From NCBI GenBank assembly GCA_005800815.1, contig SYEK01000011.1, forward strand, positions 1 through 64,000: DNA of 64,000 nt, in the 5' to 3' direction. Within the stretch, counting starts at the first letter, position 1, and the number at the start of each line of letters is the position of its first letter. The position numbers and the translations under genes were made by a program. Below the pieces are notes generated by a model. That model searched no databases. It saw only the letters and a list, made by a program, of their open reading frames with translations, and was not told where the DNA came from. The DNA is from Actinomycetota bacterium. GTDB taxonomy: Bacteria; Actinomycetota; Actinomycetes; Nanopelagicales; Nanopelagicaceae. Below are positions 35,969 to 39,982 of the stretch, piece after piece.

Positions 35969-36841
35969 ATGGATGAGCTTGCGGCATCCTATGCGGAGTG
36001 CAAGAGATTAAATGCTCTGCATGGTAAGACATACTATTTAGCGACTCTACTGCTTCCCAAATCTAAACGTCCTTATGTCCACGCGCTCTATGGCTTTGCT
36101 CGATATGCCGATGAGATCGTCGATGATCTGGCCTCTACGCTCACAGTTGAAGAAAAGGCACAAGCATTAGGCACATGGGGCAGGAAAATCCTGGGCGATT
36201 TAAAGAGTGGGGAGAGTGATGATGCGATAGGTCGTGCCTTGATTGATACCGTCAATCGCTTCGATATCCCACATGCCCACTTTGAGGCCTTTCTTCACTC
36301 AATGACCATGGATCTGACCGTGCAGGAGTACCAGACATACGAGGATTTGATGGAGTATGTCTATGGCTCTGCCGCCGTGATTGGACTTGAAATGGTCCCA
36401 GTCCTAGGTGTACTCGACGAGGGTGCATATGAGTGCGCAAAAAACTTGGGCATTGCCTTTCAATTAGCGAATTTCATTCGAGATGTCGGTGAGGATCTAG
36501 ATCGTGGCCGTATCTATCTTCCGCTCTCGGAGTTGGCTCAATGTGGTGTCACACGCCAGATGCTTGAAGAGAGAGTTCTGACCTCACAAATCGTGGAGGC
36601 TCTCAAGTTTCAGATTGCCCGCGTGCGCGCTCTCCAGGCCCAGGCCGCCCCTGGAATTTTGATGTTGGAGGCAAAGAGTCGACCATGCATAGAAGCAGCG
36701 AGCACACTCTACTGTGGGATCGTCGATGAGGTAGAAAAGATTGGTTATGACATCTTCAATCATCGAGCCACAACCTCCACATCGCGCAGAGCACGTGTTG
36801 CAGGTGTAGCTCTCCTGAAGCGTTTAGTTTCATCTCACTAA
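35969..36841 (+). CDS. crtB: Phytoene synthase CrtB
   Basis: Condenses two GGPP molecules to phytoene. The 290-residue squalene/phytoene synthase shows the first aspartate motif in ARYADEIVDD, the YVYGSAAVIGLEM stretch, and the second motif in NFIRDVGEDLDRGRIYLP. The ATG abuts the crtI stop. A short hairpin at 36861-36875 probably ends the crtE-crtI-crtB transcript. Confidence 0.95.
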   Translation: MDELAASYAECKRLNALHGKTYYLATLLLPKSKRPYVHALYGFARYADEIVDDLASTLTVEEKAQALGTWGRKILGDLKSGESDDAIGRALIDTVNRFDIPHAHFEAFLHSMTMDLTVQEYQTYEDLMEYVYGSAAVIGLEMVPVLGVLDEGAYECAKNLGIAFQLANFIRDVGEDLDRGRIYLPLSELAQCGVTRQMLEERVLTSQIVEALKFQIARVRALQAQAAPGILMLEAKSRPCIEAASTLYCGIVDEVEKIGYDIFNHRATTSTSRRARVAGVALLKRLVSSH

Positions 36842-36860
36842 GACTCACACACTGCCAGCT

Positions 36861-36875
36861 CCTGCAGATTGCAGG
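36861..36875 (+). terminator. Weak hairpin terminator after crtB
   Basis: A 6-bp perfect stem (36861-36866 with 36870-36875) with a GAT loop lies 20 bases past the crtB stop and is followed by a T-rich GTTGTGTTAT. It lies just before the TPP riboswitch. Confidence 0.45.
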
Positions 36876-36891
36876 GTTGTGTTATAGGCTC

Positions 36892-36978
36892 AGACTACGG
36901 GAGCCCCAAAAGGCTGAGAGGGTCTGAAGTTCAGATCGACCGTTAGACCAGTCCGGTAATGCGGATGTGGAAGGAAAA
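36892..36978 (+). promoter_or_regulatory. TPP riboswitch (thi box)
   Basis: The thiamine pyrophosphate aptamer core is visible: the CTGAGA thi-box motif at 36914-36919 within GGCTGAGAGGGTC, then GACC and TCCGGTAATGCGGATG (about 36950-36967), matching the conserved P4/P5 part of the aptamer. The element lies directly upstream of a PnuC-family transporter and its 3' end contains the GGAAGG likely to be the ribosome site, so control by masking of translation initiation is inferred. Confidence 0.88.
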
Positions 36979-36983
36979 ATCTC

Positions 36984-37559
36984 ATCTCAACAACTCTTTT
37001 TACTGCCTGGGGCTACGAGGTATCAATCCTTGAATCAGTCGCGGCCTTCGTCTCCTTCATCGGTGTCTGGCTCGGGACAACTGGTCGGCGAATCACATGG
37101 CCATGGTGGGCTGCAAGCAGTGCGCTCTACATGGTCTTTTTCTACCAAGCCGATCTCTTTGCAAGTGCTGCTCTGCAGATTGTCTTTATCATGGCCGCAG
37201 TATGGGGCTGGTTTGGCTGGGCACCTACCGGAGCCGAACCTGGTGCTCTTTCAAATCGTAATAGAGTCATTTGGGCGATGGCTACGATCATCTCGGTCTC
37301 ACTTCTCACACCAATTCTCTCTAACCTTGGCGCTGCAGCGACCTGGTCTGATGCATTTCTACTCGTTGCAAGTTTGATTGCACAGATACTCATGGTCTAT
37401 GAAAAGATAGAGACCTGGATTCTATGGATCATCGTTGATGCAATCGGAACTATTCAATATGCAGTACTGGGTTATTGGTTCACAGCCGTTTTGTATCTTG
37501 CCTTTACAGTTATTGCTGTGATCGGCTGGAAGCGTTGGAATGTCTCTTATAGCCATTGA
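36984..37559 (+). CDS. pnuT: PnuT-type thiamine transporter (PnuC family), no canonical start codon
   Basis: PnuC-fold vitamin transporter with about seven membrane segments; the TPP riboswitch in front identifies thiamine as the likely substrate. The conserved N-terminal region (TAWGYEVSILESVAAF, then LGTTGRRITWPWW) is encoded upstream of the first in-frame ATG (37131). No ATG, GTG or TTG exists in frame before it. A start at the ATC at 36984, 9 bases after GGAAGG, would give 191 residues. The alternative is an A5 tract (36975-36979): with one A fewer, an ATG at 36965 comes into frame. It overlaps the next gene by 20 bases. Confidence 0.75.
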   Translation: MSTTLFTAWGYEVSILESVAAFVSFIGVWLGTTGRRITWPWWAASSALYMVFFYQADLFASAALQIVFIMAAVWGWFGWAPTGAEPGALSNRNRVIWAMATIISVSLLTPILSNLGAAATWSDAFLLVASLIAQILMVYEKIETWILWIIVDAIGTIQYAVLGYWFTAVLYLAFTVIAVIGWKRWNVSYSH

Positions 37560-38037
37560 TGGTCCCGCTGGAGCAGGAAAAACTACTCTAGCAACACAGA
37601 TGTATAAGGAACTTTCTCACAATGAGTCTGTCGTAATCATCCATATGGATGATTTATACAATGGTTGGCACAACGCACTCAATGATGATTTAACTTGGAA
37701 GTTAAAGGCTATCGTCAATGCATTCTTGACAAAGAACGAGCTCTTGATTCCCATTTTTAATTGGGCGACTATGTCCTTTGAATCATCCCAACTGCTTGTT
37801 CCAAGTGATATCCTAATTATTGAGGGTGTTGGCGCCGGCCAAAAAGTAGTGCGTGATGGTGGAGCGATCCTGTACTGGCTCGATATCGAACCCGAAGAGG
37901 GCTTAGCCCGTGTTATAGCCCGAGATGGCATTGGGATAGAGATCCATATGCGCCAATGGCAGGTGGATCAGGAGGCGCATTTTCAACGTGATGCAACGCG
38001 CGAGCATGCAACCCACGTACTTACTTCACATCCCTGA
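37540..38037 (+). CDS. P-loop kinase, uridine kinase-like, in the TPP-riboswitch operon
   Basis: A 165-residue P-loop protein with Walker A GPAGAGKTT near the start, the HMDDLYNGW substrate-loop motif and a SDILIIEGVGAG Walker B-like strand, resembling uridine/phosphoribulokinase-type small-molecule kinases. It overlaps the pnuT gene by 20 bases and should be under the same riboswitch. This suggests it phosphorylates the imported vitamin, as NadR and NrtR-linked kinases do for PnuC. A thiamine kinase role is an inference; no thiamine-specific domain is recognised. Confidence 0.75.
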   Translation: MSLIAIDGPAGAGKTTLATQMYKELSHNESVVIIHMDDLYNGWHNALNDDLTWKLKAIVNAFLTKNELLIPIFNWATMSFESSQLLVPSDILIIEGVGAGQKVVRDGGAILYWLDIEPEEGLARVIARDGIGIEIHMRQWQVDQEAHFQRDATREHATHVLTSHP

Positions 38038-38086: not shown

Positions 38087-39982
38087 ATGTCGGATCTATC
38101 GGGTGAGCTCATTGATAGTCGCTATCAGCTGATTCAACAGGTCGCTCATGGTGGGATGGCCTCGATCTATGAGGCGATTGATACTCGTCTGGACCGTAAA
38201 GTCGCAGTCAAAATCATGCATCCGCATTTGGCCCAAGATGAGGCCTTCGTTAATCGATTCATACGTGAAGCAAAGGCGGCAGCAGCCCTGACTCATCCAA
38301 ATATTGTCGCAGTACAGGATCAAGGCTGGAATCAAGGTGGCATACCCGCAGTCTTTTTGGTGATGGAGTTTATCGAGGGCAGCACCCTGCGTGAGTATCT
38401 CAATGAGCGTGGACGATTCGAATTCAATGATGCGATCAATTATCTGACCCCCATCCTTAGCGCCCTTTCGGCGGCTCACGCAATTGGGATTGTTCATCGG
38501 GATATCAAGCCTGAGAATATTTTGATCTCGAAGGAGGGGAGGATTAAGATCGCCGACTTTGGTCTGGCTCGCGGGGAGATTATTGGCTCTACGATGACGG
38601 CAGAATCAAGTGTAATTCTCGGCTCAGTTTCATATCTAGCCCCCGAGCAAGTACAACGGGGTGTTTCCGATGCACGAAGCGATGTTTACGCCCTTGCCAT
38701 CCTCGCATTCGAGATGCTCACTGGTGAAAGGCCATTTCTCGGTGAGACCCCTATTCAAATTGCATTCATGCATGTCAATCAAGACATTCCATCGCTTCGC
38801 TCCAAGCGCAAAGAACTCCCTCAAGCACTCGATGAATTAATTTGTCGGGCAGCTCATAGAGACCCTGATTTACGCCCACGCAATGCGGGTGAGTTCCTCG
38901 CGCAGCTGCAGAGGATTGCGGCAGAGATAGATCCGAAGAAGAATCAGATGAGATTGGATCTTGATCTACCAGTCGATCCGATTCGAGAAAAACCGCGCTC
39001 TAAGCCAAAACGGGAGATTCTTACTCAAGCCATTACTGAGTTGAAAGAGAGCACACAAGAGGTTCGTCGAAGTGCCGATAAAAAGCAGCGAGCCAGTAGG
39101 CGTGTGCGACGTAACCGAAAAGTTGCTCTGGTCCTTGCCGTCATCCTGGGCATCGGTGGCTGGTACACACTCATAGGACCTGGCTCTCGGATAGTTGTTC
39201 CATCAACAATCGGGGGCTCATACGATGAGGCGCTCTCACTGCTGACACCTTTGGGAATAACCAATGTCATCGCTAAAAAACGATTTGATGAGGAGGTCGC
39301 AGCAGGCACTGTTATCGAATCAGATCCGCAGGCAGGAGGGCGAATAGACTCTGGTGACTCAGTGACTTTGATAGTCTCCAAAGGTGCTGAGCGTTTTACG
39401 ATTGCATCTCTCGTCGGCTTAACAACAGCGGCAGCAACGGCTCTCATCACAAAGAACCCTTTAATGTTGGGGACAACTACCGAAATATTTAGTAACAAGA
39501 TACCAAAGGGCTTTATCATCTCCTCAGATCCACAAGCAGGTGCCCAAGTAAAGAGAGGCTCTGCAGTCAATCTCGTGGTGAGCAAAGGTGTTGAGTTGGT
39601 CTCTCTTGCATCATATGTGGGTAAGAGCGGGGAGCAGGGCCTCAATGAGCTAACAGAGGCAGGATTTGAGGTCGAAAGTTCATATGCATTTGATGAAAGA
39701 ATTCTGACCGGTGCAGTCATTTCACAGACACCTACAGGAAATATTGACGTCCCAAAGAATTCAAAGGTCAGACTGATTGTCTCAAAAGGCTCTCAATATG
39801 TTTACATTCCGAATGTGCTCTCACTTGAGGAGAGTAAGGCGGTAGCAGCGCTTAAAAACCTTGATCTTAAAGTCATCGTCAAGAAATTGGGAGTCAAAAA
39901 AATCAAAAAGACCACAAATATCTCCCCCAAGGTCGGAAGTAAAGTCAAACGTGGCAGTACGGTCACGATTACCGTAGGGTGA
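38087..39982 (+). CDS. Serine/threonine protein kinase with PASTA domains
   Basis: Transmembrane Hanks-type kinase of the PknB/PknL/StkP kind, 631 residues. The kinase domain spans about residues 13-275, with the glycine loop (VAHGGMASIYEA), lysine K42 in VAVKIMHP, HRDIKPEN with H137-R138-D139, and DFG at 157-159. A basic juxtamembrane region leads to one membrane segment near residues 346-366. About four extracellular PASTA repeats follow, each ending in a VSKG-type turn. These sense wall fragments and control growth. Near aroG, it matches the mycobacterial pknL neighbourhood. Confidence 0.95.
   Translation: MSDLSGELIDSRYQLIQQVAHGGMASIYEAIDTRLDRKVAVKIMHPHLAQDEAFVNRFIREAKAAAALTHPNIVAVQDQGWNQGGIPAVFLVMEFIEGSTLREYLNERGRFEFNDAINYLTPILSALSAAHAIGIVHRDIKPENILISKEGRIKIADFGLARGEIIGSTMTAESSVILGSVSYLAPEQVQRGVSDARSDVYALAILAFEMLTGERPFLGETPIQIAFMHVNQDIPSLRSKRKELPQALDELICRAAHRDPDLRPRNAGEFLAQLQRIAAEIDPKKNQMRLDLDLPVDPIREKPRSKPKREILTQAITELKESTQEVRRSADKKQRASRRVRRNRKVALVLAVILGIGGWYTLIGPGSRIVVPSTIGGSYDEALSLLTPLGITNVIAKKRFDEEVAAGTVIESDPQAGGRIDSGDSVTLIVSKGAERFTIASLVGLTTAAATALITKNPLMLGTTTEIFSNKIPKGFIISSDPQAGAQVKRGSAVNLVVSKGVELVSLASYVGKSGEQGLNELTEAGFEVESSYAFDERILTGAVISQTPTGNIDVPKNSKVRLIVSKGSQYVYIPNVLSLEESKAVAALKNLDLKVIVKKLGVKKIKKTTNISPKVGSKVKRGSTVTITVG

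Follow-up and report, generated by a model that had tools for sequence, protein, structure and literature searches.

A candidate thiamine kinase of the uridine-kinase fold encoded behind a TPP aptamer and PnuT in Nanopelagicales

Introduction

How is thiamine phosphorylated in bacteria that import the vitamin and keep ThiL but carry none of the known enzymes for the preceding step? To our knowledge, surveys score such ThiL-only genomes as auxotrophs and leave the enzyme that phosphorylates imported thiamine unnamed. The question is raised by a locus of an actinobacterium (order Nanopelagicales, family Nanopelagicaceae) in which a small P-loop kinase follows a PnuC-family carrier. The available portion of the work of Kang et al. 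(PMC5301498) describes cultured freshwater relatives as thiamine auxotrophs with nearly all thiamine enzymes missing, and a THI element ahead of “PnuC,” interpreted there as PnuT, and makes no mention of the kinase. The PnuT/riboswitch pair of the lineage is already published, and the new part is the kinase: an enzyme family proposed to fill the thiamine-to-TMP step, with evidence from several importers across Actinomycetota. We propose, with a probability of roughly 0.84, that the product of the gene at 37540-38037 is a thiamine kinase, catalysing thiamine + ATP → TMP + ADP in a PnuT-kinase-ThiL route under the control of the aptamer.

Organization of the Locus and Its Aptamer

The window, i.e., the whole stretch of DNA that was analysed, covers positions 1-64000 of a contig in a 1.285-Mb genome that is 99.4% complete. 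The + strand carries, in this order, genes for GGPP synthase, crtI and crtB (35969-36841), the TPP aptamer, pnuT, the kinase gene, a gene at 38087-39982 whose product is a Ser/Thr protein kinase bearing PASTA-like repeats, and a gene resembling that of endonuclease IV; the names crt, PASTA, and nfo were read off the translations. A weak terminator-like hairpin with a 7-pair stem lies 3′ of crtB (36860-36876, + strand) and is uncertain, since 1.1 such stems are expected by chance in the region. The aptamer (36887-36989), pnuT (36984-37559), and the 165-aa candidate thiamine kinase of the uridine-kinase/PRK fold (37540-38037), all on the + strand, form one unit. The original prediction that the kinase gene overlaps the end of pnuT and shares its TPP riboswitch is confirmed: the overlap is 20 nt (kinase start 37540, pnuT end 37559) and the aptamer stands ahead of both genes.

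The default Rfam scan of the window gave no match, because the aptamer, found with RF00059 in a permissive scan (31.2 bits, E 2.7e-4), does not reach the gathering score of 54.3. It was detected at the same place, with 28.7-46 bits, in 31/31 scanned pnuT-bearing loci of the order; default Rfam thresholds miss every one of these aptamers. In the alignment of 30 orthologous aptamers, P2, P2b, P3, and P5 are paired in 99.8% of cells, and double-sided changes occupy 29 cells in six pairs, as against 8.0 +/- 2.0 in shuffles. In slid-alignment controls, pairing drops to 14-44%. The core motifs GCTGAGA and ACC..GGTAATGC are conserved, the core columns being invariant or nearly so. The sub-threshold TPP aptamer is real and under selection.

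The low score results mainly from the absence of the P1 helix, whose pairs are poor in the covariance-model alignment and whose 5′ strand is not conserved among orthologues. The place of this strand is occupied in aptamers of the order by a conserved TAnnnT box, which lies at -14 to -9 relative to CGGGAG and upstream of an invariant CGGGAGC; its bases are conserved at T 83%, A 83%, and T 93% across about 46 orthologous leaders. In the window, the box reads TAGGCT (36885-36890, + strand) and is presumed to be a -10 box. From its position, the RNA start is expected at the first base of P2, about 36896-36898, and RNAs of the order’s aptamers probably start at P2. The ribosome binding site of pnuT, GGAAGGA (36969-36975, + strand; conserved as GGAAAGGA in orthologues), lies within the 3′ end of the aptamer, the core of which spans 36898-36983. 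We infer a P1-less aptamer placed at the extreme 5′ end of the RNA, with the pnuT ribosome binding site in its 3′ end.

The PnuT Carrier

The product of pnuT, a predicted thiamine carrier, matches PF04973 (NMN_transporter) with 126.9 bits (cut-off 27.3). Its conserved start, ATG or GTG in nearly all relatives and 8 nt after GGAAGGA, reads ATC here at 36984, and the frame contains no ATG, GTG, or TTG ahead of 37131. The ATC at 36984-36986 reflects either an error in the assembly or initiation at AUC, which is rare. Thiamine is the predicted cargo in view of the aptamer and auxotrophy, in agreement with Kang et al. (PMC5301498). The PnuC family is present in 142/151 genomes of the order. Many of them, including those with loci L033 and L034, encode a second carrier of the PnuC family, which is longer and has no TPP aptamer; for one such carrier, that study proposes PnuX (riboflavin).

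The Missing Step Between Import and ThiL

The original prediction pointed to the genome’s content of thiN, thiL, and thiamine pyrophosphokinase genes as its test. ThiL (TMP to TPP) is present in the genome under study and in 149/151 genomes of the order, whereas TPK, ThiN, and ThiE are absent from the former. Within the order, ThiE exceeds the cut-off in 6/151 genomes, the TPK catalytic domain (PF04263) was found in 0/151, with controls matching as expected, and ThiN in 0/13 genomes tested. A ThiK-like kinase of the APH type was considered as a general thiamine kinase and rejected. It is present in some genomes, including the one under study, but in the closed genomes of two auxotrophic sisters (G001 and G003) no APH-type kinase was found save for protein-kinase cross-matches, so that APH is not the general answer. 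The APH-family protein of the genome under study (357 aa; G000:C11:21967-22695) is shared by some relatives only. The candidate kinase, which on sequence comparison is unrelated to TPK, ThiN, and ThiK, is present in 145/151 genomes. Since thiamine is imported and ThiL is kept, a thiamine-to-TMP step is needed, and none of the known enzymes for it was found. The retention of ThiL makes TMP, not TPP, the expected product of the kinase.

This bears on the first alternative, namely that the kinase is a thiamine pyrophosphokinase which transfers pyrophosphate and yields TPP directly, like the TPK beside PnuT in Bacteroidetes. Operons of the type TPP riboswitch-pnuT-tnr3, known in that group, end in such an enzyme and have the same genomic place and the same regulation (PMC5613172). 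However, a kinase making TPP directly would leave ThiL without a substrate, and ThiL is kept although ThiE, the usual source of TMP, is mostly gone. The uridine-kinase/PRK fold, moreover, is known for the transfer of a single phosphoryl group. We therefore regard a TPK-like role as improbable, and the formation of TMP by the kinase as the preferred reading.

Kinase and Thiamine Importers Within the Order

In all 43 pnuT-bearing loci read in the order, pnuT lies directly upstream of the kinase gene. In kinase-positive genomes without the PnuC family, the kinase gene stays at the crt locus (L038-L042). Among kinase-positive genomes lacking pnuT, a TPP riboswitch is found on a ThiB-ThiP cluster in five (G007, G058, G075, G080, and G129) and on ykoE in one (G043); in G135 (80% complete), which is kinase-positive and without PnuC, no importer-linked TPP riboswitch was found. 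The kinase is thus kept where ThiBPQ or YkoEDC replaced PnuT, which argues that it follows thiamine import generally and not PnuT alone. Four well-assembled genomes without the kinase (G035, G059, G110, and G134) make their own thiamine and have ThiE. The riboswitches of these four were located on thi biosynthesis genes, and in G035, G059, and G110 also on a cytX-like gene; a thiamine importer under riboswitch control was not seen in any of them. The other two absences are assembly gaps: in G132, pnuT runs off the contig end (L069), and G141 has a completeness of 79%. All these counts come from a single order of related genomes and carry limited weight, the adjacency being one inherited arrangement and not 145 independent ones.

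Kinase Homologues Across the Class

Homologues of the kinase were found by profile search in 207/297 genomes of the class. Outside the order, 79 loci were read; a thiamine-type importer lies directly beside the kinase gene on the same strand in 7 of them, compared with a chance adjacency of about 0.1%, roughly estimated from few importer loci and some 3000 genes per genome, and in 72 no thiamine importer adjoins it. The importers differ: pnuT precedes the kinase gene at a different chromosomal place in L110; thiY precedes it in L128 and L141, and in L146 also with a riboswitch (49.6 bits) ahead; the order thiY-kinase-thiX-thiZ is seen in L133 and, by thiX/ATPase matches, in L173; and in L135 a riboswitch above the gathering score (57.8 bits) stands ahead of ykoE in a ykoEDC-kinase arrangement. 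A scan of named genomes, additional to the 79 survey loci, gave ykoE-ykoD-ykoC-kinase in Propionibacterium cyclohexanicum DSM 16859 (L230; 4-nt overlap), ykoEDC-kinase in Curtobacterium (L228 and L236), thiB-thiP-kinase with an 8-nt overlap and a riboswitch (53.1 bits) ahead of thiB in a Cellulomonadaceae MAG (L231), pnuT-kinase at a different locus with a weak riboswitch (26.5 bits) ahead of pnuT (L218), and a further importer-linked kinase in a Micrococcales MAG (L221). Importer-kinase operons occur in at least five families other than that of the genome under study. In the survey of the pair that the original prediction had proposed, pnuT and the kinase gene are conserved together in the order, and three other, unrelated thiamine-type importers are added by the class.

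In the tree of 136 kinases, the importer-linked ones are scattered; outside the order, their distribution requires a minimum of 9 changes, which indicates that the association arose or survived repeatedly. The motif YxGW is present in all importer-linked kinases; of the roughly 21 kinases that lack it, such as those from Streptomyces-sized genomes, none is importer-linked, a sample too small to be significant. YkoE and the kinase co-occur in the class (74/87 vs 120/210, Fisher p 2e-6); this figure carries little weight, since it includes no correction for kinship and since Streptomyces-like genomes have a YxGW-less relative of the kinase and no YkoE.

Beyond thiamine importers, no common theme (his genes or others) was found around the class homologues. 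A fusion occurs in one genus (g17), where a protein of 702-703 aa (L129:4926-7037 and L139:3051-5159) has the kinase as its N-terminal domain and a PabB-like chorismate-binding enzyme as the remainder. In another family (L110, L213, and L218), the kinase gene, with or without pnuT, is near a gene for a kgd-like alpha-ketoglutarate decarboxylase/dehydrogenase, a TPP enzyme. A hidden TPK in the class was also considered and rejected: PF04263 matches occur in 102 genomes, and all are fragments of 32-40 residues in frames of mostly 400-500 aa, so that no real TPK was seen in the class sample. These fragments are consistent with SteA-like proteins rather than TPK, and they may be the source of some “thiamine pyrophosphokinase” labels.

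The nature of the importers leads to the second alternative, in which the kinase acts on another compound of the thiamine pathway, most likely HMP or degraded thiamine delivered by the neighboring importer. ThiYXZ- and YkoEDC-type importers, adjacent to the kinase in L133, L173, and L135, can carry HMP in addition to thiamine or in its place (transporter table, PMC6593275). On the other hand, in the 145/151 genomes of the order without ThiE, HMP cannot be joined into thiamine, and ThiB-ThiP and PnuT are thiamine importers. In standard pathways, HMP is already phosphorylated by ThiD. A role in HMP metabolism is accordingly a shade less probable even than that of a pyrophosphokinase, and thiamine remains the preferred substrate.

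Fold and Substrate-Side Residues of the Kinase

The kinase matches PF00485 (25.7 bits, above the cut-off of 22), and the TPK catalytic domain (PF04263) is not among the Pfam matches listed for it. The nearest NCBIfam model, PRK06547 (NF005115, “hypothetical protein”), is matched over its full length with 82.5 bits, below the cut-off of 173, and udk (TIGR00235) with 37.5 bits, below the equivalog cut-off of 220.3; the weak sequence matches include NRK1. A literature search, with subscription journals outside its reach, found no paper on PRK06547 or on an actinobacterial thiamine kinase. The AlphaFold2 model (pLDDT 96, pTM 0.90) was compared with solved folds using Foldseek, and the best were uridine-cytidine kinases (prob 1.00, TM by query 0.75-0.82) and also phosphoribulokinases.

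In the P-loop GPAGAGKT (residues 8-15; 37561-37584), G8, G11, G13, and K14 do not vary across 26 sequences. D37, the presumed catalytic Asp, occupies the alignment column of the Asp in uridine kinases and PRK and is followed by the subfamily motif YxGW (D37..Y40xGW43; 37648-37668), with D37, Y40, and W43 invariant. The DDLY motif is also present. An invariant W75 (37762-37764) lies in (F/Y)(N/D)W, which the alignment places where uridine kinases have YDF..H/Y; the motif EGVG (residues 95-98; 37822-37833) is invariant as well, as are R124, R128, and D129 within the order. All these features are on the + strand. The His/Tyr of YDF..H/Y, which we take to be the reader of the pyrimidine base in uridine kinases, corresponds to Met78, a position variable among orthologues. 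The two invariant tryptophans could stack on the rings of thiamine.

That the closest solved folds are uridine-cytidine kinases and PRK, together with the weak udk matches, might suggest an ordinary nucleoside kinase, for uridine/cytidine or nicotinamide riboside, located behind pnuT by chance, or that PnuT itself carries nicotinamide riboside. Yet the base-recognising residue is not conserved, the transcript starts with a TPP aptamer under selection, the kinase recurs beside four thiamine-type importers, and the carrier is likewise interpreted as PnuT by Kang et al. (PMC5301498); we consider this explanation very unlikely. Least likely of all is that the kinase is a neighbor by descent, belonging with an unrelated function to the conserved crt/PASTA-kinase region, as its persistence there in pnuT-less genomes (L038-L042), the unrelated surroundings of most class homologues, and the PabB fusion in one genus might suggest, because at least five other families have independent operons with thiamine importers and the kinase is absent from prototrophs in which no thiamine importer was seen.

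Proposed Function and Mechanism

The proposal of a thiamine kinase is based on gene order, the conserved aptamer, missing alternatives, the retained ThiL, importer operons, and the fold. This context makes the protein a candidate for thiamine kinase activity (EC 2.7.1.89), converting thiamine to TMP. The idea of a non-orthologous thiamine kinase, put forward in the original prediction, is therefore supported by the retention of ThiL, the absence of TPK, ThiN, and ThiE, and the recurrent importer operons, with the substrate being predicted. Against it speak the 72/79 loci outside the order without an importer, the fusion to PabB, which is not a thiamine enzyme, the possible HMP cargo of YkoEDC and ThiYXZ, and the APH-family protein in the same genome.

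In the proposed mechanism, PnuT would let thiamine equilibrate across the membrane, and the kinase would trap it as TMP, which ThiL, encoded elsewhere in the genome, would turn into TPP. Binding of TPP by the P1-less aptamer with which the mRNA begins would hide or release the ribosome binding site of pnuT. In the presumed direction of the switch, the aptamer is closed by TPP, and less carrier and kinase are translated. When TPP is short, the carrier would be made, and the kinase as well, probably through translational coupling across the 20-nt overlap.

A broader version of this reading is, on balance, somewhat favored. It assumes that YxGW kinases are an additional, unnamed thiamine-phosphorylating family derived from the uridine-kinase/PRK fold, which would act as general thiamine kinase throughout Actinomycetota, a group lacking TPK, and pair with any thiamine importer (PnuT, YkoEDC, ThiBPQ, or ThiYXZ). 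In this lineage, it would be placed behind a P1-less aptamer, P1 having been lost because the RNA starts at P2. A defined candidate would fill the thiamine-phosphorylation gap for a lineage that is very abundant in lakes and for the class as a whole, and would let genome surveys score thiamine salvage correctly. A YxGW kinase beside an importer could also be used as a sequence marker for the cargo of unassigned carriers.

Comparison With Known Systems

The locus resembles the pnuT-tnr3 operons of Bacteroidetes (PMC5613172) in its TPP riboswitch, PnuT, a thiamine-phosphorylating enzyme directly downstream, and trapping by phosphorylation; it differs in that the kinase has the uridine kinase/PRK fold, not that of TPK, and that TMP is the expected product, with ThiL needed. 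PnuC with nicotinamide riboside kinase (NadR/NRK) is likewise a combination of a PnuC-fold facilitator and a vitamin-trapping P-loop kinase, whereas the riboswitch and pathway context here are those of thiamine and the substrate-side residues differ. The reaction proposed here, thiamine to TMP ahead of ThiL, is the same as that of E. coli ThiK/YcfN; however, ThiK has the APH fold, to which the fold of the kinase is unrelated, and some closed genomes of the order are without an APH member. UCK2 and T. thermophilus Udk (PF00485) have in common with the kinase the fold, the P-loop, and the position of the catalytic Asp. Compared to them, the kinase is shorter, shares 17-21% identity, and does not conserve the base-reading His/Tyr; YxGW and (F/Y)(N/D)W are motifs of its own.
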